This document shows, piece after piece, positions 39,305 through 51,576 of a DNA stretch of 64,000 bases. Every line of letters starts with the position of its first letter. Position 1 is the stretch's first letter. The stretch is taken from assembly GCF_002077945.1 (NCBI RefSeq), contig NZ_LVYD01000001.1, positions 434,001-498,000 of the forward strand, in the 5' to 3' direction. A program made the translations under genes and the position numbers. The notes below the pieces were generated by a model that ran no database searches, was not told the origin of the DNA, and worked only from the letters and a program-made list of their open reading frames with translations. This DNA is from Niastella vici. Lineage in GTDB: Bacteria > Bacteroidota > Bacteroidia > Chitinophagales > Chitinophagaceae.

Positions 39305-39997
39305 CTAACCCACAACAAACCGGTACCCTACCCCTTTGATGGTAATTATTTCCAGCAGATCATCTTCTTTAAGGTAGCTGCGCAATTTAGTGATGTAAAC
39401 ATCGAGGTTGCGGGAGTTAAAAAATGAATCATTGCCCCAAAGCAAATTCAAAATGTCTTTGCGGTCAATGATCTTATCGCGGTTCTCGTATAACAATTTC
39501 AGCAACTCACTTTCGCGGAACGATAATTTCCGTTCTTCATTACAAGCCGTCAGCATTTGGCGGGTTACATGAAAACTGTATTTTCCTATTTGTAATGTGT
39601 CTTTGCCATTCACCGCTTTGACTCCCTGTTCCCTGAACCGCAATGCATTTTCAATGCGCACGATCAATTCTTCCATGCTGAACGGTTTGCGGATATAATC
39701 ATTTCCACCAATCGAAAACCCTTTTACCAGATCATCGGTTTGGGTTTTGGCAGTAAGGAAGATAATGGGAACCGTGGCGTTTATTTCGCGTATTTCGCCG
39801 GCAATGGTAAAACCATCCTTATTGGGCAGCATTACATCGAGCACGCAAACATCGGGCGCCAGCTGCCTGAAAACGGCGAGCACATTGAGGCCGTCACTTT
39901 CCATTACCACCTCAAATTGCCGGCTCTCCAGGCTTTCCTTTACAATTTTGCCCAGAAACAGCTCGTCTTCAACGTACAGAATTTTGGTTTTGCTCAT
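39305..39997 (-). CDS. OmpR-family response regulator
   Basis: A 230-residue regulator with an N-terminal receiver (phospho-acceptor Asp54 in CVLDVMLPNKDGF; VEDE acidic pair; Lys in YIRKPFS) and a C-terminal winged helix (SFRESELLKLLYENRDKII..RNLDVYITKLRSYLK..IKGVGYRFVV). It overlaps the kinase gene by 4 nt (ATGA), so the two are translationally coupled. OmpR-type regulators bind head-to-tail repeats at 10-11 bp spacing; such repeats occur upstream of this operon, of the GLPGLI gene and of the barrel gene at 47428. Confidence 0.95.
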   Translation of the reverse strand: MSKTKILYVEDELFLGKIVKESLESRQFEVVMESDGLNVLAVFRQLAPDVCVLDVMLPNKDGFTIAGEIREINATVPIIFLTAKTQTDDLVKGFSIGGNDYIRKPFSMEELIVRIENALRFREQGVKAVNGKDTLQIGKYSFHVTRQMLTACNEERKLSFRESELLKLLYENRDKIIDRKDILNLLWGNDSFFNSRNLDVYITKLRSYLKEDDLLEIITIKGVGYRFVVG

Positions 39998-41436
39998 GGA
40001 GCTGCAGGAAGTTTAATAATGAATCGGCTACCAATGCCCGGCTGGCTTTCTACTTCAATAGAACCATAATGCCGCTGAATAACATACGATACATAGCTGA
40101 GTCCCAATCCATATCCTTTTACATTATGGGTATCGCCGGCCGGAACACGAAAAAATTTATCGAATATTTTTTTATGGTATTCAGGGGGGATGCCTATGCC
40201 ATTATCAGTTATACTCAACAGAATACGTTCTGTTTCATCTTTCAGCTCAAGGTGTATGGAAGGATTTTCCCTGCTATACTTCAGCGCATTATCTAGCAAA
40301 TTGAACAGCACACTGGTTATATGCAGCCTGTCGGCTTCTATTTCAAACCGATACCCATGCATTTGCACATTTACCTGGGCCCTGTATTTTTCAAATTGCA
40401 GTTTCATGGAGTTAACCACTTCTTTTACCAGCACCGCAAGGTCAATGGTTTCTTCTTTCAATTCAACCTGGTGCTTTTCGAACATCGACAATTTCAATAC
40501 TTTATCAACCAGGAACGATAACCGTTTTAATTCGTTTGATGAAATGGCCAGGTATTCTTTGGTTTTCTCCTCATCGTGCAGGGCACCAAAATTTCGTAAG
40601 GCTTCAATGGCTACGCTTACTGTCGCAATAGGCGTTTTTAGCTCATGGGTGATATTGCTGATGAAGTCGTTTTTGATTTGCGTTAATTTTCTTTGCTGCA
40701 CCAGGCTGCGTAATAAAAGGGCAAAAGAAAATACCGTAAGCCCAACCAGCACAACCGAAACCAATAGCTGGGACCACATTTTTTGCAATACAAAGGCGTT
40801 CATATTTCCCACTTCCAACCTGTATGTTACCGGGTGATTAAAGCCAATGGTAATTTCATTCTGCATTTCTTCAAATGGTGGGGGCGGAAACCCATCTTGC
40901 AAAACCGCTTTGCGGCTGGTTATATAAAAGGGCAGTGATATTCTTTCCTTTCTTAATACCTGCGCATATTTATCACTCAATTCCTTTACGCCAATACTGT
41001 CCTGCAGCGAATCTACCTTGCTCAATACCCGCACAATGCCCGGGCCGGGACCGTCCTTAAAAACATGAATTTCATTCATTGAATCTGCAGGCACGCCTTC
41101 TCGAATGAATGCTGTATTTTTCGAGGTAACAAATACCCGCACCTTTCTATCACGGGCCATCGTATCCAGTACTCTTGTTCGCATGGCATCCAGCATGCCA
41201 ACAGCGCTATAGCCGGCTACCCTGAACTTAACGTCGGTGCTAAAATTGGTATCCAGTTTTAGTTTTTCGGCGCGAATGCGTTGCAGTGCCTCGCCGAATA
41301 ATACGTTGGTGCGAAAACCGGTCTCCTGTTTTTCTTCCCTGAAATTTTTGATAAGCCAGAATACCTGGAAGGTTGCTACAGCCAAAATTGCCAGCAACAT
41401 TAAAACTACCGGTAAATATAGTCGGCGCCCATTCAT
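39994..41436 (-). CDS. Sensor histidine kinase of the two-component pair
   Basis: A 480-residue membrane kinase. TM1 lies at about residues 7-28, a periplasmic sensor of about 200 residues follows, TM2 is near 225-250 (LLVSVVLVGLTVFSFALLL), then HisKA (ISNITHELKTPIATVSVAIEAL) and HATPase (LFNLLDNALKYS, ITDNGIGIP, GYGLGLSYV). There is no HAMP domain. The layout matches Bacteroidota RprX-like kinases. The start at 41436 is chosen because a longer in-frame start at 41481 lies inside the promoter and operator. Confidence 0.93.
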   Translation of the reverse strand: MNGRRLYLPVVLMLLAILAVATFQVFWLIKNFREEKQETGFRTNVLFGEALQRIRAEKLKLDTNFSTDVKFRVAGYSAVGMLDAMRTRVLDTMARDRKVRVFVTSKNTAFIREGVPADSMNEIHVFKDGPGPGIVRVLSKVDSLQDSIGVKELSDKYAQVLRKERISLPFYITSRKAVLQDGFPPPPFEEMQNEITIGFNHPVTYRLEVGNMNAFVLQKMWSQLLVSVVLVGLTVFSFALLLRSLVQQRKLTQIKNDFISNITHELKTPIATVSVAIEALRNFGALHDEEKTKEYLAISSNELKRLSFLVDKVLKLSMFEKHQVELKEETIDLAVLVKEVVNSMKLQFEKYRAQVNVQMHGYRFEIEADRLHITSVLFNLLDNALKYSRENPSIHLELKDETERILLSITDNGIGIPPEYHKKIFDKFFRVPAGDTHNVKGYGLGLSYVSYVIQRHYGSIEVESQPGIGSRFIIKLPAAP

Positions 41437-41443
41437 AACATTA

Positions 41444-41475
41444 CAAAAGTAGCCGAATAATACCGGCCGGGCCAA
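41444..41475 (-). promoter_or_regulatory. Promoter of the two-component operon
   Basis: On the minus strand TTG (41475-41473), 21 nt, TACTTTTG (41451-41444). It ends 7 nt before the ATG at 41436. The three-repeat operator starts 6 bp beyond the -33 element. Confidence 0.65.
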
Positions 41476-41480
41476 TACCA

Positions 41481-41521
41481 TTAACCTTAATTAACATTAA
41501 ACCAAGGTGCATTAACCTGTT
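41481..41521. promoter_or_regulatory. Three-repeat operator between the kinase and GLPGLI genes
   Basis: Direct repeats TTAACCTTAA (41481-41490), TTAACATTAA (41491-41500) and TTAACCTGTT (41512-41521), spaced 10 and 21 bp, so all lie on one DNA face. The orientation points to the GLPGLI gene. The third repeat ends 17 nt before the TAGTTTTG -7 box and takes the place of -33. The same layout occurs at 47487-47527 (32 of 41 positions equal). Confidence 0.6.
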
Positions 41522-41538
41522 ACCGTTGTGAGCTGTAA

Positions 41539-41546
41539 TAGTTTTG
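41539..41546 (+). promoter_or_regulatory. Probable -7 box of the GLPGLI gene
   Basis: TAGTTTTG fits TAnnTTTG and ends 17 nt before the ATG at 41564. There is no normal -33 TTG; the third operator repeat lies at that position, which suggests an activator-dependent promoter. Confidence 0.5.
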
Positions 41547-41563
41547 AAACAAATAAAATACGT

Positions 41564-42355
41564 ATGAAAGCGATATATTTTTTGGCCGGTTTATTCATGG
41601 TAACGCCAATTCAGGCCCAGCAGCAAGCCGGACGCGCAGTATATGAATTTACCCCGCAAATGCAGATCAGGATGGCTGGTAATGGCGCCCCCGAAGGCAT
41701 GCCGCCACCGCCCCGGATCGTTATCAAAATGGAAGTACTGTTCGGAAATAACCAGATGTTGCGCCGGCAGGTAGTAGATAATACGGCCAATGATCTCCCT
41801 GGCAATGAGAACGGTATTCAGATACGCACTTTTGGCATGGGCGACGATGATATTACCTGGCTGAATTTTGCCGAAGGCCGTAAAGTTGAACAACGGGAAT
41901 TTGCCACCAAACAATACCTCATCACCGATAGTATTGGTAAAGGAAATTGGAAATTAACCGGCGAAACCAGGAATTTGCTGGGTTATACCTGCCAGCAAGC
42001 CACTACAACAAAGATTGGCAAACGCAGCATGATATCGATGGAGAATGGTAATATGAGCAGAAAAGAGATGCCCGATACAAGTAAGGTGATCGTTTGGTTT
42101 GCACCGGCTGTTCCGGTACCGGCGGGGCCAGACTATGCAGGCCAGTTACCCGGTTTGATCCTGGAGATTGATATTAACGGTAACACTACTTACAAAGCCA
42201 TAGAAGTTTCCACTAAAGGTGACATCGCCAGCATTAAAGAACCCAAAAAGGGGAAAAAAGTTACGGCAGAAGAATTTACAAAAGAACGTGAAAAAATGAT
42301 GGAAGAGATGCAGCGTAATGGAAGTGGCCGAAGAGTTATGCACATGAGCAATTAG
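41564..42355 (+). CDS. GLPGLI-family secreted protein
   Basis: A 263-residue exported protein with signal peptide MKAIYFLAGLFMVTPIQAQ. The family motif appears as GQLPGLILEIDI, preceded by TGETRNLLGYTCQQAT. GLPGLI (Porph_ging) proteins are Bacteroidota-specific, of unknown function, and often neighbour TonB-receptor-like barrels and two-component systems, as here. The mature N-terminus has a Pro-rich stretch (EGMPPPPR). It is divergent from the kinase operon and shares the operator with it. An upstream start at 41528 would add 12 residues and overlap the -7 box. Confidence 0.9.
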   Translation: MKAIYFLAGLFMVTPIQAQQQAGRAVYEFTPQMQIRMAGNGAPEGMPPPPRIVIKMEVLFGNNQMLRRQVVDNTANDLPGNENGIQIRTFGMGDDDITWLNFAEGRKVEQREFATKQYLITDSIGKGNWKLTGETRNLLGYTCQQATTTKIGKRSMISMENGNMSRKEMPDTSKVIVWFAPAVPVPAGPDYAGQLPGLILEIDINGNTTYKAIEVSTKGDIASIKEPKKGKKVTAEEFTKEREKMMEEMQRNGSGRRVMHMSN

Positions 42356-42414
42356 TTGTATGCATCGCATAATGGATAACCTTTAGAACCATTGTCAAAA
42401 TCATTAAACTTGAT

Positions 42415-42509
42415 GATGGCCGTCATAAAATATTTGAAAGATTCATTCTAATTTCAGAGTGGTTTTTCATAGGATATTGGATTAACACGGGCTGGATTTC
42501 TATCCGGCC
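42415..42509 (+). repeat. Duplicated ~95-bp element ending in a hairpin, copy 1
   Basis: The last 61 nt (from 42449) match copy 2 with four differences; the first 34-42 nt match at about 70 percent. It ends in GGCTGGAT/ATCCGGCC, a hairpin followed by TTTTTTATTTTT. The orientation suits termination of the GLPGLI message or a small RNA. Confidence 0.6.
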
Positions 42510-42520
42510 TTTTTTATTTT
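42490..42520 (+). terminator. Terminator downstream of the GLPGLI gene
   Basis: GGCTGGAT, TTCT, ATCCGGCC (one G-U pair) followed by a T-rich run. A second small hairpin (AACCCG/CGGGTT, 42524-42541) follows, with a further T-run. Confidence 0.75.
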
Positions 42521-42606
42521 TCTAACCCGGTAGTACGGGTTGTTTTTGTTGATCAACATGAAAAAAGTTAGCGCAAATCAAGAAATCGCTAAACAAGTGT
42601 TTGTGT

Positions 42607-42702
42607 GATGGTGGTCATAGATTTTATGAATTTTTGATGGTAATTTCAAAGTGGTTTTTCATAGGATATTGGATTAATACGGGGCTGGATGTCTATCCGG
42701 CC
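42607..42702 (+). repeat. Duplicated ~95-bp element ending in a hairpin, copy 2
   Basis: Second copy, same strand, 192 bp after the first. It ends in GGCTGGAT, GTCT, ATCCGGCC, then CTTCATTTTTT. The differences from copy 1 keep the hairpin intact. The 356-bp gap between 42355 and 42712 holds only these elements. Confidence 0.6.
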
Positions 42703-42711
42703 CTTCATTTT

Positions 42712-44559
42712 TTAATCACGTGAAAGTATCAAGGCGTTATATGGCCCCAGGTTAATGGCAGCGCTAAATTCCTGATCGTCTTTTTTGCTTTCAAATGTTT
42801 CGATTTCCAGAGCGGGTGAATCGGTGAAAGTTGGATCATATCCTTTCCAATCGCTGTTGAAACGAACTTTCCAAACTCCTTCCTCTGGCATTCCTATTAC
42901 ATAATTCTTATGTTCTTTATTGGCAAAATTCAATACCACAATGGTACTGTCTTTAGGTCCGCCTTCGTTCCAGCGATGATAGGCTATTATTTTTTCTTCA
43001 TTGTTTACATGAATGATGCGGGTATGTTGGCCCGAAAGCCCTTTGGTTAATCCATCGAGGTTACGGCGCAGGCCAATGCAATCGCGGTAAAGCCGGGCAA
43101 TACCTTTTAAGGAGGAGAACTTCGACCAGTCGAGCGGATTTTTTGCATCGAACCAGCCATCTTCAACAAATTCCTGCCCCTGAAATAACATGGGGATACC
43201 GGCACAGGTAAAAATCATTACGGCACCCAACACCGATCTTTTTTTGGCAAACCAGCCCTGCGCATCATCGGGTGCTATTTCTTCGGGCACACGAGTTTTA
43301 CCATTTGCCACATCGTCGTGCGATTCGGTATAGATCACCCGTTGAAAGGCATCGCCATTGAAACAATGGGTAATTGCGTTTTGAATTTTGCTCATATCGC
43401 GGTGGGCATCTTCAGTCACTTTCAATACATCCCGTACATTAAATGTAAATGAGGGATCCCATTGCGTGTTAAACCCTTCCCCATTATCCTGCGTTTTTTT
43501 GGTGATCCATTCATTGTTTTGCAGGTCTTCGGCTATCAGGATCTTCCAGGGATACCGCTTTTGCACTTCTTCATTTATCCACCTCATTAATGACCAGCCA
43601 TCGGGCAGGTCGGCTTCAGGTGTATTCTTGCCATGCACGTTCCGAACAAATAACAGGGCATCGGTACGCAGTCCGTCGATATGATAATCTTCCAGCCACA
43701 TCAGAGCGTTATCGCGCAAATACTGTCTTACTTCGGGCCGTCCATAATCGGGTCGCGTATGGCCCCAGGGCGTTTCGGCCCGCCAGTCCTGGTAGAAGTA
43801 AATACCGCCAAGGTCATTCTCACTCCAGCCGTCAAACTTCCACAGGTCAAGGTCTGCCGGGCCAAAATGATTATACACCACGTCGAGTATAACGGCAATG
43901 CCCAGTTCATGTGCAGCGTTTATCAGCTCTTTAAATCCGCGTATACCCCCATAATCAGTTTCAATGGCAAAAGGATGCGAGAGATCGTACCCCCACGAAA
44001 AGCCGCCGGGAAATTCGGAAGCGGGCATTATTTCAAGGGCATTCACTCCCAGCGCTTTTAAATAGCCCAACCGTTGCTTTGCACTTTCAAAAGTTCCGGG
44101 ACGCCCATCTTCCCTTACATTAAAAGTTCCTATATGCAATTCATAAATGACCAGCTCATTCCAGGATGGCATTTGAAAATCGTGATCGGTCCAGTCGAAA
44201 TGCGGATCGGCAATAATGGAGTTGCCTGCTGAATTGGTTACTCCCCGGGCGTAGGGATCGTTGCGGTAAAGCTCGCCCACATCGGTATGTAAAATATATT
44301 TATACTGGTTGCTGACAGCAGCTTCCGGAACATTCAACCCCCAATAACCATTGCCTTCATGGGTCATGGGGTGTTTTGTTTTTGCCCAATTATTGAATTC
44401 ACCGGTAACAAATATTTTTTTGGCATGGGGGGCCCAAACCCTGAAGAATACGCCATTTTCATGCGGAATGGAACCCATTCCTTCTACGTGGGTTGCAGGT
44501 GCCGCCAGGGCAGCGCTTTTTCTTGACATTGTAGTATTGTTTGTGGATTTCAATACCAC
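42712..44559 (-). CDS. GH13 alpha-glucan enzyme with N-terminal CBM48 (branching-enzyme-like)
   Basis: A 615-residue cytoplasmic glycoside hydrolase family 13 protein. Residues about 30-115 are a CBM48/E-set domain (VFFRVWAPHAKKIFVTGEFNNW). The barrel shows the conserved regions DVVYNHFG, DGLRTDAL (nucleophile Asp), IAED (acid/base Glu) and TESHDD, and ends with a beta-sandwich. Similar proteins are annotated as 1,4-alpha-glucan branching enzyme or malto-oligosyltrehalose trehalohydrolase; the sequence alone does not separate these. The ATG at 44529 (MSRKSAAL) is an equally good start. No other glycogen gene adjoins. Confidence 0.88.
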   Translation of the reverse strand: MVLKSTNNTTMSRKSAALAAPATHVEGMGSIPHENGVFFRVWAPHAKKIFVTGEFNNWAKTKHPMTHEGNGYWGLNVPEAAVSNQYKYILHTDVGELYRNDPYARGVTNSAGNSIIADPHFDWTDHDFQMPSWNELVIYELHIGTFNVREDGRPGTFESAKQRLGYLKALGVNALEIMPASEFPGGFSWGYDLSHPFAIETDYGGIRGFKELINAAHELGIAVILDVVYNHFGPADLDLWKFDGWSENDLGGIYFYQDWRAETPWGHTRPDYGRPEVRQYLRDNALMWLEDYHIDGLRTDALLFVRNVHGKNTPEADLPDGWSLMRWINEEVQKRYPWKILIAEDLQNNEWITKKTQDNGEGFNTQWDPSFTFNVRDVLKVTEDAHRDMSKIQNAITHCFNGDAFQRVIYTESHDDVANGKTRVPEEIAPDDAQGWFAKKRSVLGAVMIFTCAGIPMLFQGQEFVEDGWFDAKNPLDWSKFSSLKGIARLYRDCIGLRRNLDGLTKGLSGQHTRIIHVNNEEKIIAYHRWNEGGPKDSTIVVLNFANKEHKNYVIGMPEEGVWKVRFNSDWKGYDPTFTDSPALEIETFESKKDDQEFSAAINLGPYNALILSRD

Positions 44560-44620
44560 CTATGCAATTTTGCTACCATGTCCTGAATGGCCGCCTGGCA
44601 AGGATTATAGCTCCCGCATG

Positions 44621-47428
44621 CTATCTTTTAATGATTTGTATGCCGCCTTCCTGGCCAGGTGCGCTTAACGCGTTCTTTGTAAGGCTATAGGTAAAGCTCA
44701 ACAGAAAAAAGCGTTGCAGGTTCTTCACCCGTTTGTCTTCAATATAGTTTTGACTGGCATTACGGCTTATGCCCACATTCTGTTTCAACAGATCAAATGC
44801 TGACAGTTTTATTTCGCCGCGGTTAAACCGTAAGCATTGTTTGCTGATGAAAGCATTCCATAACGGCACCTTTGCATTATACCCGCTGGCACGCTGGCTG
44901 TTGATTGAATAGGTAAATTCTGTATTAAAGAAAAAACGCTTCGGTAACTGCCAGTTTAACTCAGTACTGTATTGCTGATTCAGGTATTCTGTATTTAATG
45001 ATTGCTGTAAACTGTATTGGGTTTTGTAATAATTAATGCCGGCTGTCAATGATACATCCAGCTTTTCTGTAGCATTTATTTCAAAACGTACGTCGGGGCC
45101 AATGTTCAATGTATTGATCATATTTTCAGCCCTGTTGATAAACGTTTTATTCTTTGTATAGCTTTCATTGATGCCGAAGTTCACCGTTCCTTTCAAAATT
45201 CGAAGGGGTAAACCCAGGTTGAAGGAACTGGTTATATCATAGGCGCCATCCACATTTACCGGCCGGGTGGTTTTTACGCCTACTGAATCAATGGTACCAT
45301 AATCAACGATCTTGTTATCGGTTCGTCGCAGATTAAGGAACGCAAACAGGTTCTTGTTCTTAAAAGGGTTCACTGAAAAAAAGTTCAGCTGCACGGTATG
45401 CGTTAGTTCCTGTTTAAGATCGGCATTCCCCGCTTTTATATTCAACGGATCGCTGTTATCGGGCACTGGTTGTAATTGAGAAACGGTTGGTTGGTTGGTG
45501 CTGGTGGTATAATTCAACCGAAGCGTACGGTATTTGGTAAAATTATATTGCAGCCGGGCGTTGGGTAACAGGTTATAAAATGTTTTACTAATGAGGGAAT
45601 CTTTTCCAGTCATCGCGATCCTGCCTTCCAGCTCTGCCTGTTGCCAGTTCACGCCGGCCGATGCATTGAATTTTCGTTGTTGCATGCGCCAGCGAATACC
45701 GGCTGAATTGTAACCATATGTGTTTTCATAATCGTTGGTGAGCCGGTCGTTCAGCTGATCGAATTGGCCGCTAATTTTATTATAGTCGTAGGTTGTTTTC
45801 GTTGCCGTGCTTTTACTGTTGCTTTTAGCCAGGCTAAACTCGAGCAACGATCTTTTGAAAATGGGTTCGGTATATACCAGCCGGCCCGTATAACTGTTCA
45901 GGTCGCTGCTGTTGCTATTTCGTTGATTGATGGAATCGGTCCTTATAACCGTACCCAGGGGATTGCGGTAGGTGTTTGTGGAGATCAAACTGCCATCGCC
46001 GTCACTGGCATTCCAGTTATTTTGCAGGCTTAAAGAAAGCGTTCTGCCGCCACGCCTGAATTTTTTGCGGAACAACAAATCGTTGCGAAAGTTATATCCA
46101 TGGCTATTTGTTTCATTGTTGCTGGTACCACTGGTACCAAGCTGTTGGGTCAGCGACTGCATATTATAATCGCTAAGGGTAGCATTGCCTGTTTGCTGAT
46201 AGCCTATGGAAGGCGATATTTTTATAGAATGAAAAGAATCGAGTTGTATATCGGCGCCCAGGTTGAGCTTATGGGTGTTGTTGAGATTTTTTGTAAAAGC
46301 ATTCTGGTTATAATAGTAAGATGAATCGGGTAAAAAATATTGCCGGTGAATGTGGCTCTCTGTGTTGGGGTTATACCGGTTGTAAAAATAGTTGCTGGTA
46401 AAATTGGTTTTGTTGCCAATGAGGTTGTTGTAATTAAACCCGCCGCCCCAAATGCTCCTTATGCCATTGCTGTTATCGTTCTGGCTATTGTTTCCATCGT
46501 TTTTGATATTTATTTCAAGACCACCGCCACTTTGTTGCATGCTGTTAAGGCCACCATTAAAATTCAACATGTCCATGAAAGAAAAACCTTCCGAATTGGT
46601 GTTGTTGCCCATACCGATCACCGAAAACTGGCGGGCGCCTTTAAACGAATTCACATTAAACCTGCCTTCATACCGGTCGTTGGTACCGCCACCCGCATTC
46701 ACTTTTCCAAACATTCCTTTCTTCTTGTCTTTCTTTAATTTCAGGTTGATGGTCTTTTCACTGTTGCCATCATCAAAACCGGTGAGCTGTGCCTGATCGC
46801 TCATTTTATCGTATACCTGCACTTTATCAACCGCATCGGCGGGCAGGTTGCGGGTTGCTATTTTGGGATCGTTGCCAAAGAACTCCTTTCCGTCAACCAG
46901 CACTTTCTTTACTTCCTGGCCCTGTGCTTTAACCGTGCCGTCTTTTTCTACTTTAATGCCCGGCATTTTCTTCAGCAATTGTTCTACGGTGGCATTGGGT
47001 ATGGTTTTAAAAGAACCGGCATTGTATTGTATGGTATCATCGAGTAAAGTCACCGGCGGTGCTTCGGCTGTTACCACCACTTCGCTCAACACGCGGGTAA
47101 CATCGTTCATGATTATATTGCCCAGGTTTACCTGTTTACGGGCATCGTCAATGGTAAAAAATTTACTGGAGTTATGATAGTTTACATGGGTTATCAACAG
47201 GCGGTACTCGCCGTTGGGCAAACCGGTTATTTCAAATTGCCCCTGGCTATTGGTCATGGTAAAAGCTACCAGCGAAGAATCTTTTTTTTGTAACAGGGTA
47301 ACCGTGGCCGATACAAGCGCCTGTTTTGAGAGGGTGTCAAACGCAATGCCCTTAACCTGGCCGTTCTTTTGGGCCATTGCCAGTGAATACAGGAAGCAGG
47401 TAACGATCAGCAGGCAGATCTTCTTCAT
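44621..47428 (-). CDS. TonB-receptor-like outer-membrane beta-barrel protein (GLPGLI-associated type)
   Basis: A 935-residue outer-membrane protein. Signal peptide 1-19; carboxypeptidase-regulatory beta-sandwich about 22-110; plug-like domain about 130-230 (VEQLLKKMPGIKVEKDGTVKAQGQEVKKVLVDGKEFFG); then a long barrel with many aromatic-ended strands to the C-terminus. No TonB box is clear. Relatives are often encoded with GLPGLI proteins; here the GLPGLI gene lies 5 kb away but has the same operator. It probably transports or binds peptides or metal complexes, which is inference. Confidence 0.88.
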   Translation of the reverse strand: MKKICLLIVTCFLYSLAMAQKNGQVKGIAFDTLSKQALVSATVTLLQKKDSSLVAFTMTNSQGQFEITGLPNGEYRLLITHVNYHNSSKFFTIDDARKQVNLGNIIMNDVTRVLSEVVVTAEAPPVTLLDDTIQYNAGSFKTIPNATVEQLLKKMPGIKVEKDGTVKAQGQEVKKVLVDGKEFFGNDPKIATRNLPADAVDKVQVYDKMSDQAQLTGFDDGNSEKTINLKLKKDKKKGMFGKVNAGGGTNDRYEGRFNVNSFKGARQFSVIGMGNNTNSEGFSFMDMLNFNGGLNSMQQSGGGLEINIKNDGNNSQNDNSNGIRSIWGGGFNYNNLIGNKTNFTSNYFYNRYNPNTESHIHRQYFLPDSSYYYNQNAFTKNLNNTHKLNLGADIQLDSFHSIKISPSIGYQQTGNATLSDYNMQSLTQQLGTSGTSNNETNSHGYNFRNDLLFRKKFRRGGRTLSLSLQNNWNASDGDGSLISTNTYRNPLGTVIRTDSINQRNSNSSDLNSYTGRLVYTEPIFKRSLLEFSLAKSNSKSTATKTTYDYNKISGQFDQLNDRLTNDYENTYGYNSAGIRWRMQQRKFNASAGVNWQQAELEGRIAMTGKDSLISKTFYNLLPNARLQYNFTKYRTLRLNYTTSTNQPTVSQLQPVPDNSDPLNIKAGNADLKQELTHTVQLNFFSVNPFKNKNLFAFLNLRRTDNKIVDYGTIDSVGVKTTRPVNVDGAYDITSSFNLGLPLRILKGTVNFGINESYTKNKTFINRAENMINTLNIGPDVRFEINATEKLDVSLTAGINYYKTQYSLQQSLNTEYLNQQYSTELNWQLPKRFFFNTEFTYSINSQRASGYNAKVPLWNAFISKQCLRFNRGEIKLSAFDLLKQNVGISRNASQNYIEDKRVKNLQRFFLLSFTYSLTKNALSAPGQEGGIQIIKR

Positions 47429-47486
47429 ACCAGTTATATTTTCGTGTTTGTAAAGTCACTACGAAAATATTCTTACATACTGGCAA

Positions 47487-47527
47487 TGAAGGTTAAGCGA
47501 GGTTGGTTTAATGTTAATGAAGGTTAA
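47487..47527 (-). promoter_or_regulatory. Three-repeat operator upstream of the 935-residue barrel gene
   Basis: On the minus strand TTAACCTTCA, TTAACATTAA, 11-nt spacer ACCAACCTCGC, TTAACCTTCA. Spacing and orientation equal the copy at 41481-41521. It is followed after 17 nt by TATTTTCG, a weak -7 box, and lies 59 bp before the start codon at 47428. Confidence 0.6.
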
Positions 47528-47539
47528 TGTTTATACTTT

Positions 47540-48103
47540 TTATACCATCGTCTGCATATTGAAAGTACCACCGGGCGTTTCCTCGTAAACCTGCAAAATG
47601 ATCTTGTAAACCCCCTCTTCCGATCTTAATTGCATTTCAACATGTAATTTTTGGATAATACCGGTGCCGGGCAAAAAGTGAAAGTATATAGTAGTTTGTT
47701 TTCTGTCCTTTTCGGGGGTTTCAAACTGGCCGTTCAAAATGACTGGCTTTTGCCCATCGAGCTTGATTATGGTATTGTGAATTTCGCTATACAGATCGCT
47801 GAACCGGGCCTTTGCTTTTTGAAAGTCGGCCGATGAAAACAACTCGCAGTCCCACTTAAAGGTTTCATATGTTTTGTACTCGGTAAGCATGCAGTTCACC
47901 GCTCCCGGAATGATCACCTTTGATTTATAATTTATGGCTGGTTCATAAGTTGAAATACGATCGCCTTTTATATTGCTGAAGTGGTTGGGATAGTCTTCTA
48001 TCACCATTTTCAGGGCGGCATTGGTACTATTGGTAAAAACGCTTTGTGCACCGGCGCCCAGGCTTATTAACAAAGCCAGTAAAAACGGGGTTACTTTGCA
48101 CAT
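47540..48103 (-). CDS. Secreted protein of unknown function
   Basis: A 187-residue exported protein with signal peptide MCKVTPFLLALLISLGAGAQ. The mature part looks like a small alpha/beta protein with AALKMVIEDYPNHFSNIKGD at its start and a C-terminal beta region (YFHFLPGTGIIQKLHVEMQLR). I do not recognise the family. It lies just upstream of the barrel gene but the operator separates them, so they are probably not one transcript. The frame extends to 48172 without a better start; 48103 fits the signal peptide. Confidence 0.65.
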   Translation of the reverse strand: MCKVTPFLLALLISLGAGAQSVFTNSTNAALKMVIEDYPNHFSNIKGDRISTYEPAINYKSKVIIPGAVNCMLTEYKTYETFKWDCELFSSADFQKAKARFSDLYSEIHNTIIKLDGQKPVILNGQFETPEKDRKQTTIYFHFLPGTGIIQKLHVEMQLRSEEGVYKIILQVYEETPGGTFNMQTMV

Positions 48104-48249
48104 ATTACAGGGTTTGGAATGGAAAAATAACAAAATCCGGATTGCTTTAATACCGGGAAATATTAAATTCACCTCAACACAATAAAAAAATGCCTTTCAC
48201 CGTTACAAAGGGAGGCCTATTCATTTCATTCACTAATTAATTCAATACC

Positions 48250-48585: not shown

Positions 48586-51576
48586 TTAACTACCACCCGG
48601 CGGCGGCATATTGCCCATAGGCCCGCCATTATTCATCTGGCGGTCCATTTGCCGTTCAATGTTACGCGGTAGCCTGGGTCCCTGGCGTTTTTGATTGCCG
48701 GCGCGGTTCAGGTTGTAGGTAAAGGTGAGCATAAAATAACGCTTCAATACCGTAGACCGGGTATCTACAATAGAGGTGCTGCTCACCGTACGGGCAATAC
48801 TCTGGTTCTGGTTCAACAGGTCGTTCACCGAGAACTTCAACTCGCCGTTCTTCTTCTTGAATATTTCGTAGGCAAGGCTTGTATTCCATAATGGAATACT
48901 TTGGTTATATCCATTTGCCCGGCCTGTATTTATATAGTAATCAAAGTCGGTTGAAAAAACCAGGCTTTTCAAAAAAGTATAGCTTATATCAGCCGAGTAG
49001 GTTTGCGTGTAGTAATCATCGTTGAGCGACGGCTGCAGTGTATACCTTACATTATTATATGCAACGCTGGCATTAAGTCCCACGATCAATGCCTCTTTGA
49101 TATCCAGATTAATGCCGGCAGTTTGAGTAACCACAAATGTGTTGGTTATATTTTGCTTTTGATAAAGGAGGCTGATATCACGGTTATAAGTGATATTGTT
49201 ATTAAAGTTCAGGCTGCTTCCTTTCATTCTTCCCTTCAACGGAAAACCCAGCGTTACAAACGACGAGGTACTGAACGAACCGTTCAGGTTCACAGGAACG
49301 GTGTATTGCGCGCCCCGCACTGAAGTATCAATACCCAGCTTTTTTTGTAAAGCAGGGCGAAGGCTATCTACACTATTCACGATCTGGTTCTGCGTTTTAT
49401 TCAGGTTAATATTAACCGATAAAAACCGAAAGCTCACCGCATCGAATGTATTGTAATTGATGTTCACATTATGGGCGAATTCCTGCTTCAATGATGGATT
49501 ACCATTAGTAACGTTTAAGATATTCGTTGGGTCAGGCGCGTCTTGCAATTGTGATATGGAGGGCTGATTGGTTCTTCCCCGGTAAAACACCCGTAAATTC
49601 TTTGAACGGCTGAAAGCATAATTGAAATTGGCTGTTGGAAAAAAGTTAACGAAATCCTGTTTCACGGTGCTATCCTTTCCGGTCAATGCCCGTATACTAT
49701 GGTTGTTCAATTCAGAATACTCAACAGCAGCGCCTAACTGCCAGCCATACAATTTATTTTGAACACGAAAATTGGCTCCTGCCCTATGGGCGATGAAATC
49801 ATTTTCAAAATAATTGGTCTGGGCCTTGTTAATTGAATCATACTTCAACGAAACTGCACTATAATTAAAGGCATTTCGATCGCTGGTAGTGTGCTTGTTG
49901 GTATAAGCATAATTCAGTTCAATGATCTTATTATTACCAATGGGTTCAGTATAAGAAGTACTTACAATGTTGCTACTCGATCTTGTTTTTTGAGATGACT
50001 TATAGTCCTGGTTTATTGTACTTAATAACCTGCCTGTAGAATCATAAAACTTCAACGGCGATTGCGTAGTGCCGTTGCCAGTACTATTATTTATGCTGTT
50101 ATTAAAACCAATGGTCAATGTGCGACCCGTTTTATGAAACCTGCGGCGGTACAATAAATTATTGTTCAACGTTATGCCATCGCGTACATTGCTGTTAATG
50201 CTTTTTCCCTCATTGGCTAAATAATCTATTGTTTTAATGGAGTGGGTAAATAAGGTATCGTAAGTATAAGAATCAGAATGTTGTATAACCAGGTTGGGGG
50301 TATACAACAGGGAGTTCATGGAATCGATATAATATTCAAACCGCAAATTGAACCGGTGATTCTGGTTTTGAGTAGTGGAATGCATGTCTTCACTCTTCAA
50401 CGTCGATGAATCATTTAATAACAGCTGCTGGGTAAGGCTTTGCTGATCTTTACGATTCTCGCTGTTTGAAAAGAAATAGCTGCCGGTAACATCAACTTTA
50501 CTGCCCCATTTATCGGTATAGTTTATGCCAACATTGGTTGCTTTCGTTATGCCGGTATTGCTGCTGCCGAAACTGCTGAAGCCGGAACTTCCGCCGCCAC
50601 CGACGCGATTACCGCCGCCACCACGGTTACCACCACCACCGCCGCCGCTAAAACCGCCGCCACCACCACTACCGCCCTGGCCGCGTGAACCAAAACCACC
50701 CATGTTGGATACAATATCATTAAATGAAAAGCTTGATTTATTCAAATTGTTTGAACCGGCGAGAATGGATATGCGGCGATCGTTATCGAACTTGTTAAAC
50801 ATGGCGCTGGCCTGGTAGCGGTCATTGTCGCCATAACCGGCGATAAAACGGCCGAAATAACCTTTACGCTTATCCTTCTTTAATTTAATATTCAGCGTTT
50901 TTGAACGGCTGCCATCATCAATACGGGTGAATTTGGCCTGGTCACTCATATCATCAAATACCTGCACCGATTCAATCATGTCGGCGGTAATATTTCTGGT
51001 GGCCAGTTTGGGATCGGTTCCAAAAAACTCTTTTCCGTCAACATATACTTTTTGTATATCCTCGCCCTGTGCCTTTACATTCCCATCTTTATCAACCTGC
51101 ACGCCCGGCAATTTTTTTAACAGGTCTTCTGCCGTGGAATTTGGTTTTGTTTTAAAGGCATCGGCCCGGTATTCAACTGTATCTTTTTTTACCTGTATAG
51201 GCGGCGCTTCCACAATCACTTCCTGCAACATACTGTTTTTCTTATCCATTAATATGGTGCCAAAATGAATAGCCGGGGAATCAGCCGAAATAGTAAACCG
51301 CCTGTATTTGGGAACGTAACCCTGGTAGGTGATCATGAGGCGGTAGGTACCGGCATCGAGGTTGTTGATCTGAAATTCACCCTTAGAATTAACCAGGGTA
51401 TAAGTTATTACGGTTGAATCGGTTGCATGCAAAACCGTAACAGTGGCATCAACGAGGGTCTCTTTATAAAGCGTATCATATAATTTACCCTGAATGCTGC
51501 CCGAAACCCTTTTTTGGGCAAAACCAGCAGTGGCAAATGCAAAGATGATAATGAACAGGGTAAAAATCTTTTTCAT
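48586..51576 (-). CDS. TonB-receptor-like outer-membrane beta-barrel protein with glycine-rich insert
   Basis: A 996-residue paralog of the barrel at 44621. Signal peptide 1-20, carboxypeptidase-regulatory domain about 24-112, plug-like domain about 130-245 (LLKKLPGVQVDKDGNVKAQGEDIQ..VDGKEFFGTDP), barrel to the end. Residues 293-338 are an almost pure Gly/Ser insert right after the plug, absent from the paralog. The C-terminal tail is Arg/Met/Pro/Gly-rich and ends MPPPGGS, so the barrel end is not the usual aromatic residue. One weak TAACGTTCATTAACC motif lies directly before its start (51581-51595). Confidence 0.87.
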   Translation of the reverse strand: MKKIFTLFIIIFAFATAGFAQKRVSGSIQGKLYDTLYKETLVDATVTVLHATDSTVITYTLVNSKGEFQINNLDAGTYRLMITYQGYVPKYRRFTISADSPAIHFGTILMDKKNSMLQEVIVEAPPIQVKKDTVEYRADAFKTKPNSTAEDLLKKLPGVQVDKDGNVKAQGEDIQKVYVDGKEFFGTDPKLATRNITADMIESVQVFDDMSDQAKFTRIDDGSRSKTLNIKLKKDKRKGYFGRFIAGYGDNDRYQASAMFNKFDNDRRISILAGSNNLNKSSFSFNDIVSNMGGFGSRGQGGSGGGGGFSGGGGGGNRGGGGNRVGGGGSSGFSSFGSSNTGITKATNVGINYTDKWGSKVDVTGSYFFSNSENRKDQQSLTQQLLLNDSSTLKSEDMHSTTQNQNHRFNLRFEYYIDSMNSLLYTPNLVIQHSDSYTYDTLFTHSIKTIDYLANEGKSINSNVRDGITLNNNLLYRRRFHKTGRTLTIGFNNSINNSTGNGTTQSPLKFYDSTGRLLSTINQDYKSSQKTRSSSNIVSTSYTEPIGNNKIIELNYAYTNKHTTSDRNAFNYSAVSLKYDSINKAQTNYFENDFIAHRAGANFRVQNKLYGWQLGAAVEYSELNNHSIRALTGKDSTVKQDFVNFFPTANFNYAFSRSKNLRVFYRGRTNQPSISQLQDAPDPTNILNVTNGNPSLKQEFAHNVNINYNTFDAVSFRFLSVNINLNKTQNQIVNSVDSLRPALQKKLGIDTSVRGAQYTVPVNLNGSFSTSSFVTLGFPLKGRMKGSSLNFNNNITYNRDISLLYQKQNITNTFVVTQTAGINLDIKEALIVGLNASVAYNNVRYTLQPSLNDDYYTQTYSADISYTFLKSLVFSTDFDYYINTGRANGYNQSIPLWNTSLAYEIFKKKNGELKFSVNDLLNQNQSIARTVSSTSIVDTRSTVLKRYFMLTFTYNLNRAGNQKRQGPRLPRNIERQMDRQMNNGGPMGNMPPPGGS

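Follow-up and report, generated by a model that had tools for sequence, protein, structure and literature searches.

A 36-bp element, two copies of which lie in the window (the whole 64,000-nucleotide stretch of Niastella vici DNA that was analysed), is most probably bound by the response regulator whose operon lies beside one of the copies (Table 1). On sequence comparison it is predicted to serve as a bidirectional switch, through which the regulator would control its own operon and activate the genes of a GLPGLI family protein and of an outer-membrane beta-barrel protein, OMP1. Since many related bacteria keep the element in front of the same genes, it is very likely that the sensor system, the GLPGLI protein and OMP1 make up a single small signalling circuit of their own. 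The compared sequences display conservation and gene specificity of the element, a fixed geometry, its co-occurrence with the kinase and modular loss; from these we infer physical binding, dependence on phosphorylation, activation over repression and an envelope signal.

Table 1. Positions of the genes, operators and promoter elements of the proposed circuit in the window.
Feature	Position	Strand	Remarks
Response regulator, OmpR/PhoB type	39305..39997	-	Pfam PF00072 (REC) and PF00486 (winged helix); proposed binder
Histidine kinase	39994..41436	-	HisKA, HATPase_c; N-terminal helices, sensor region without Pfam match
-7-like box TACTTTTG, kinase-regulator operon	41444..41451	-	29 nt from first half-site
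Operator 1	41481..41516	+	Intergenic, kinase operon / GLPGLI gene; from sequence; with operator 2 unique in genome, conserved
Operator 1 TTAAC half-sites	41481-41485, 41491-41495, 41512-41516	+	
-7-like box TAGTTTTG, GLPGLI promoter	41539..41546	+	22 nt past last TTAAC
GLPGLI family protein	41564..42355	+	TIGR01200, PF09697; signal-peptide-like start
OMP1, outer-membrane beta-barrel family	44621..47428	-	PF14905; N-terminal CarboxypepD_reg-like domain
-7-like box TATTTTCG, OMP1 promoter	47462..47469	-	22 nt past last TTAAC
Operator 2	47492..47527	-	5' of OMP1; from sequence; conserved before OMP1 relatives
Operator 2 TTAAC half-sites	47527-47523, 47517-47513, 47496-47492	-	

The stretch of operator 1, read on the plus strand from 41481, is TTAACCTTAA TTAACATTAA ACCAAGGTGCA TTAACCT and that of operator 2, read on the minus strand from 47527, is TTAACCTTCA TTAACATTAA ACCAACCTCGC TTAACCT. 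The preliminary description of this region had reported three tandem repeats facing the target genes and 32 identical positions of 41 between the copies; both statements hold, since the half-sites start at 0, 10 and 31 in each operator and the recount again gave 32/41. OmpR/PhoB-type regulators bind head-to-tail repeats spaced by about 10-11 bp, and the operators have conserved repeats of this kind at 0 and 10. Within the family the +20/+21 position in most cases matches TTAAC poorly. As TTAAC at +20 is also seen in some distant genomes (L140/L230, L232), the three repeats may be a decayed array of four.

The two-component system belongs to the OmpR/PhoB family, with PF00072, PF00486, PF00512 and PF02518 all scoring above the Pfam gathering scores, and the recognition-helix region of the regulator is strongly conserved among 51 regulators. 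The regulator could be assigned neither to RprY (233.9 bits on NF051850, curated cut-off 370) nor to the Bacteroidota PhoB (157.3 bits on NF053854, curated cut-off 270). A search of the text of RprY papers for motif words found none. No recurring Pfam sensor domain was found in the sensor region of the kinase, and in the kinase model residues 62-136 have a pLDDT below 50.

Conservation of the operator was examined by a blind scan of 84,980 named genomes for the operator pattern, which gave at least 118 sites in at least 106 assemblies, all listed ones being titled Bacteroidota. Among the 118 sites listed, 111 lie directly 5' of a target gene, which is GLPGLI in 72 cases and an OMP1 relative in 39, and in 5 more the kinase is the sole recognised neighbour, so that 116 of the 118 are found at genes of the circuit. 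In two genomes (G011, G047) the GLPGLI and OMP1 loci are on separate contigs and the operators are kept at both; the comparison of the same loci in relatives, which had been proposed earlier, thus came out in favour of conservation, unlinked loci included. When 395 genomes sampled across the phylum were searched with one mismatch, just 10 matched, against 2 in the control, therefore the operator in its present form is not phylum-wide.

In 294 genomes of the family, with 5 kinase candidates scored per genome, the kinase was found in 97/107 genomes with the operator versus 23/187 without it (both, 97; operator only, 10; kinase only, 23; neither, 164). The corresponding odds ratio of 69 counts genomes as independent though the species are related, and since the control of the two-mismatch pattern also matches in 22/294 genomes, some of the 107 operator genomes owe their match to chance. 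The operator adjoins the kinase in 115 of 118 kinase loci. In 91 loci chosen by the kinase, independently of the motif (L276-L366), TTAAC-N5-TTAAC is present 5' of the kinase in 90, and in 80 of these loci TTAAC pairs are spaced by 10 (80 times), 21 (70) and 31 (78), any other spacing up to 45 occurring at most 7 times. The third half-site, at +31, accompanies the GLPGLI gene: it was found in 86/94 loci with that gene versus 10/21 without, so where the GLPGLI gene is absent the third repeat is often gone and the first two are retained. In these counts one locus (L041) was scored without operator and GLPGLI gene and another (L088) without the GLPGLI gene, though both features and the gene, respectively, are present; two (L102, L313) are truncated by short contigs, and where a locus offered several candidate pairs the script preferred the pair with the better third half-site. 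Exceptions occur in both directions: the GLPGLI gene is kept with only the first two repeats, at these spacings, in L281, L098 and L351, and the third repeat is kept with no divergent gene found in L095, L299 and L341. In two genomes (G009, G598) the kinase is lost and much of OMP1 is lost with it. OMP1 is also split over two frames in G040, where the kinase is kept, and in L170.

Another OmpR-type regulator could bind the operator, the adjacent two-component system being merely one of its targets. The RprY-like paralogue L238, which with 307 bits on NF051850 likewise stays below the cut-off of 370, has a similar recognition helix (FNGRSMDVYIAKLRKYL versus FNSRNLDVYITKLRSYL), and cross-talk is known among OmpR-type regulators. 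Yet a widespread paralogue would not predict a site that tracks the neighbouring kinase over the 294 genomes and adjoins it at nearly every kinase locus, which makes this explanation unlikely. We favour the neighbouring regulator as the binder because of the co-occurrence with the kinase, the fixed promoter geometry, the loss of the third repeat where the divergent target is missing and the two joint decays.

The promoter geometry is strictly kept. The distance of 17 nt to the -7-like box given in the preliminary description corresponds to 22 nt counted from the last TTAAC in both copies. Among the sites listed, this distance is 22 nt in 64/72 GLPGLI sites, the remaining 8 being shorter by about one helical turn, and in 38/39 OMP1 sites; on the kinase side a perfect -7-like box lies 27-30 nt away in 93/115 loci. 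In the box searches ties were resolved towards 22 and 28 nt, and shuffles were handled identically. Between operator 1 and the box of the kinase operon there is a TTG at 41475-41473, 5 nt off the operator. Neither the GLPGLI nor the OMP1 promoter retains a good -33 element, as judged against the usual consensus. In the proposed mechanism, the neighbouring OmpR-type regulator would bind the 36-bp element, the half-sites at 0 and 10, lying 5' of the kinase-regulator promoter, would provide autoregulation, and the half-site at 31 would occupy the place of the -33 element, in the divergent GLPGLI promoter for operator 1 and in the OMP1 promoter for operator 2, so that a regulator bound there could recruit RNA polymerase. 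Activation is preferred to repression because the third repeat sits at the -33 position expected from that consensus.

A repressor covering the -33 position of the GLPGLI and OMP1 promoters could use the same overlap, and PhoP of Riemerella anatipestifer raises some GLPGLI genes and lowers others (PMC9603813). Nevertheless, the lack of a good -33 element in both target promoters would suit an activator replacing it, and the exact 22-nt spacing with its shift by one turn is activator-like. Exact spacing, or shifts by whole helical turns, is typical of activators which contact the polymerase. Repression is thus very unlikely, and activation by the neighbouring regulator remains the preferred reading.

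Occurrence of the pattern at random positions throughout the genome, which would have spoken against the proposal, was not observed. In the 10.06-Mb genome of the strain the strict pattern has 2 exact matches (0 for the reversed-pattern control), its mean count in 100 shuffles of the window is 0.00 with up to 3 mismatches allowed, and a search with just the first two repeats, one mismatch being allowed, finds operators 1 and 2 only; no other site matches closely. A looser pattern that tolerates up to 3 mismatches finds the same two and two 3-mismatch sites (L034, L035), against 3 in the control, and a wider regulon in this genome was rejected on that count. That the two copies, the only ones in the genome and alike at 32/41 positions, reflect chance likeness or a recent promoter duplication devoid of regulatory meaning is vanishingly improbable, chance being ruled out by the genome, shuffle and first-two-repeat searches and by conservation, and the whole reading being contradicted by the many genera in which, at both genes, half-sites and box distance are fixed but spacers vary.

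The GLPGLI protein matches TIGR01200 with 123.4 bits over 229/229 positions (curated cut-off 50), and its predicted structure bears some likeness to the LolA/RseB half-barrels. To our knowledge no function of GLPGLI proteins is known; a literature search under GLPGLI accession names found no paper. Four further GLPGLI matches are present in the genome, and tandem TTAAC was not found in the stretches fetched for these genes (L268-L271). The regulon proposed for the GLPGLI family holds for the gene in the window, and operators at the other four were rejected on that search. A sequence search of the PDB with OMP1 found no hit at E 0.01. Tentatively, the putative GLPGLI half-barrel might be a periplasmic sensing or feedback part, in the manner of RseB or CpxP, which would inform the kinase of the condition of the outer membrane or of OMP1 and close an envelope circuit with both.

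If true, such a closed circuit would assign GLPGLI proteins their first role, as part of an envelope response of Bacteroidota, with a half-barrel protein as a candidate for the periplasmic partner that works with an envelope sensor. There are few Bacteroidota response regulators whose DNA site, promoter geometry and targets have been described together; in the present case all three can be derived by comparison, one 36-bp pattern singling out the circuit in a very large genome collection. One regulator, two operators and three promoters make a testable set.

In the Cpx system the regulator site lies between the two-component operon and the divergent gene of an exported protein, CpxP. By analogy the window has an operator between the two-component operon and the divergent gene of a putatively exported GLPGLI protein; what sets it apart from Cpx is its second target, a large barrel. 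On its model the GLPGLI protein might be likened to the N-terminal bowl-like domain of PNGase F-II, besides the LolA/RseB/MucB half-barrels, but it has one domain only and lacks the catalytic part of PNGase; as for the bowl-like domain, its function is stated to be unknown (PMC9522356).

A link between a Bacteroidota response regulator and GLPGLI genes is already published (PMC9603813, PMC8757827). According to the first, PhoPR of R. anatipestifer has a regulator motif with TTTAACA as its most conserved letters, binds 5' of its own operon, and counts five GLPGLI genes and an outer-membrane beta-barrel gene among its listed direct targets (PMC9603813). Compared from this description, the TTAAC-type motif, the own-operon site and the GLPGLI and barrel targets are alike; PhoPR differs in its 583 binding peaks against two sites here, in GLPGLI genes that shift both ways, and in motif letters which, in the form seen, contain no 0/10/31 array (PMC9603813). 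In Porphyromonas gingivalis PG0719/PG0720 (HaeSR) mutation of PG0720 goes along with lower levels of two GLPGLI genes (PMC8757827), and the regulon reported in the accessible text comprises hemin acquisition and surface glycans (PMC8757827, PMC3764172). Unlike here, the text examined contains no operator of the 0/10/31 type; what HaeSR and the present system have in common, going by that description, is a two-component system linked with GLPGLI genes.

The operator, built of TTAAC half-sites at positions 0, 10 and 31, occurs twice in the locus, which lies on contig 1 of a genome of 10,058,349 bp in 134 contigs. The preliminary description had regarded the two copies as alike, and both match what it described, 32/41 positions being equal. 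The pattern is not scattered over the genome either: the strict form with up to 3 mismatches retrieved these two sites only, the reversed-pattern control gave 0, and repeats 1 and 2 alone, with 1 mismatch, again gave only the same two sites in this genome. Since tandem TTAAC was not found near the four further GLPGLI matches of the genome (L268-L271), most of its GLPGLI genes are under other control. Two tandem copies of a roughly 60-bp stretch, which contains the core TTTTTCATAGGATATTGGATTAA, are present downstream of GLPGLI, and T-rich sequence comes after each; the core was also found downstream of GLPGLI in the relative G009.

Features of the locus
Feature	Position	Strand	Remark
Response regulator	39305-39997	-	frame shares 4 nt with kinase
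Histidine kinase	39994-41436	-	operon with regulator
-7-like box, kinase operon	41444-41451	-
Operator 1	41481-41516	+	between kinase operon and GLPGLI
-7-like box, GLPGLI	41539-41546
GLPGLI gene	41564-42355	+	divergent from kinase-regulator operon
~60-bp copies	about 42440-42710		two, tandem
Branching-enzyme-like gene			after GLPGLI
OMP1, barrel	44621-47428	-	next after branching-enzyme-like gene
-7-like box, OMP1	47462-47469
Operator 2	47492-47527	-	before OMP1
Open frame	47540-48172	-	without family match
OMP2, barrel	48586-51576	-	paralogous to OMP1

With up to 3 mismatches the operator pattern was matched in 27/99 genomes (this one included) and the control in 0/99; the surroundings of the matching sites were fetched and their genes read with HMMER. 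The claim of a shared operator is borne out there, as seven other genomes of the genus carry two matches in the same layout: the kinase-GLPGLI gap contains one site, and the second stands roughly 6 kb away, ahead of OMP1. G011 and G047 have these loci on separate contigs, with a site at each (the kinase-side site of G047 has 4 mismatches), and in G061, G040 and G035:C30 GLPGLI and OMP1 stand in tandem behind a single site. The 3-mismatch sites of G022 and G051:C26 adjoin none of the target genes and look like chance matches. In the phylum sample, 10/395 genomes matched at 1 mismatch, with 2 control matches.

A blind scan of the named genome collection with TTAACNTTNWTTAACMTTAWN11TTAAC (at least 115 stretches) gave at least 118 sites in at least 106 assemblies. 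The matches listed are all Bacteroidota by title: Chitinophagaceae, other Chitinophagales, Saprospiraceae, Cytophagales (Lacihabitans, Emticicia, Jiulongibacter and Runella among them) and some Bacteroidales MAGs. According to HMMs built from the orthologues in the relatives, the next gene downstream of the 118 listed sites was GLPGLI in 72 (kinase divergent in 69) and OMP1 in 39. The other 7 comprise 5 with a divergent kinase and no recognised downstream gene and 2 with neither; in three of the seven (L136, L150, L200) the sequence slice ends within 111 nt. The L126 site precedes a DoxX-like gene, the L140 site a 205-aa protein with a sub-threshold match only, and no open frame was found near the L188 site. 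In Taibaiella lutea an exact operator (L194:364-399) lies ahead of a gene for a Por_Secre_tail-domain protein of 605 aa, which may be an additional target. OMP2 was the best downstream match in 0/118 listed sites and an operator before it was not found; together with the open frame without family match, it accompanies OMP1 in many relatives. At L140 and L230-L233, all from distant genomes, a similar site adjoins a related kinase and precedes a different small protein, whose start is signal-like and which lacks a convincing family match. TTAAC stands at 0, 10, 20 and 31 in L140/L230 (one site) and L232, and the operator may derive from four tandem half-sites.

Among 294 genomes of the family (own included), 107 matched the operator (pattern with 2 mismatches) and 120 contained the kinase (best E <=1.3e-107); 97 had both, 10 the operator only, 23 the kinase only and 164 neither (odds ratio 69, p 6e-43, ancestry uncorrected). 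The reversed pattern matched in 22/294 genomes, of which 3 have the kinase. Five of the 10 operator-only genomes were examined (all except G540, G568, G577, G700 and G701): a contig end cuts the kinase in G503, the kinase is lost in G598, and in G686, G616 and G057, assemblies 79-85% complete, the site stands before OMP1. In the 22 of 23 kinase-only genomes examined (all except G622), 5 loci have TTAAC at 0, 10 and 31 between weaker flanks (L276, L278, L279, L283, L285), 5 have the third TTAAC at +30, as read directly off the sequences (L105, L361, L363, L364, L366), 11 have repeats 1 and 2 with the third absent (L100, L277, L280, L281, L282, L284, L354, L356, L357, L359, L360), and L102 ends at a contig edge.

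TTAAC-N5-TTAAC was present upstream of the kinase in 115/118 loci, of which 27 came from the window and loci gathered beforehand and were partly motif-chosen, and in 90/91 of those chosen by kinase match (80 plus 11, the 11 mostly from genomes that the pattern did not match). A third TTAAC, at +31, was seen in 86/94 loci with GLPGLI versus 10/21 without it (Fisher p 1.8e-5, uncorrected). Five of the 8 GLPGLI loci lacking it are those with a repeat at +30, the rest being L098, L281 and L351. Among the 10 third-repeat loci scored without GLPGLI, 6 face a TMEM260-like gene, called by Pfam (PF11028) in L083 and L089 and from a similar start in L093, L355, L358 and L362; here the gene opposite a related, operator-bearing kinase-regulator pair encodes a membrane protein in place of GLPGLI. 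L088 was mis-scored, GLPGLI being present, and L095, L299 and L341 keep the third repeat with no recognised target. In the 80 loci L287-L366, TTAAC pairs were spaced by 10 bp 80 times, by 21 bp 70 times and by 31 bp 78 times, any other spacing up to 45 bp occurring at most 7 times.

Bacteroidota promoters have a -33/-7 consensus. The distance from the last TTAAC to the -7-like box (at least 5/6 box letters toward GLPGLI or OMP1) was 22 nt in 64/72 GLPGLI and 38/39 OMP1 sites among those listed in the scan; the exceptions were 8 GLPGLI sites at 11-12 nt and one OMP1 site at 21 nt. In shuffled sequence a box fell at 20-24 nt in 138/2,360 trials. On the kinase side, 93/115 loci have a perfect box at a distance of 27-30 nt from the first half-site, 0.8 being expected from shuffles. 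Within 41434-41451 (minus) the kinase start codon (41436) is 7 nt past the -7-like box, so that the kinase mRNA would have next to no leader. The kinase start is similarly close to the box in several same-genus sequences.

The kinase is gone in G009 and in G598, which belongs to another genus. The regulator match starts at residue 23 and 79, respectively, the GLPGLI match at residue 53 and 87, and OMP1 is matched only at 1-36 and 596-933 in G009 and at 1-412 and 848-924 in G598, the exact site still standing ahead of OMP1 in both. The joint decay in these two cases fits one pathway. OMP1 is, however, also split into two frames in G040, where the kinase is present, and in L170.

In 51 regulators, conservation reaches at least 90% at 10/16 residues of the segment 193-208, in the area of the recognition helix. 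Assignment of the regulator as RprY, the best NCBIfam model, was rejected, its score being below the cut-off; L238, a paralogue in the same genome, fits RprY better. The predicted GLPGLI model (pLDDT 85.5, 64 sequences) best matched the bowl-like domains of PNGase F-II and 7zgn, and next the half-barrels ependymin-related, VioE, RseB, MucB and LolA. Long helices mark the N-terminus of the kinase model, whose sensor region is predicted at low confidence.

The simplest reading is that the operator would be a bidirectional site of the neighbouring regulator. Putative binding of the regulator to repeats 1 and 2 would autoregulate the kinase-regulator operon, and the third half-site may recruit the polymerase at the GLPGLI and OMP1 promoters. 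No earlier description of the operator or of the three-unit circuit was found in the portions of the literature searched, a scope outside which most subscription papers lie. Other Bacteroidota regulators have been tied earlier to GLPGLI genes, namely PhoPR of Riemerella anatipestifer (PMC9603813) and PG0719/PG0720 of Porphyromonas gingivalis (PMC8757827).
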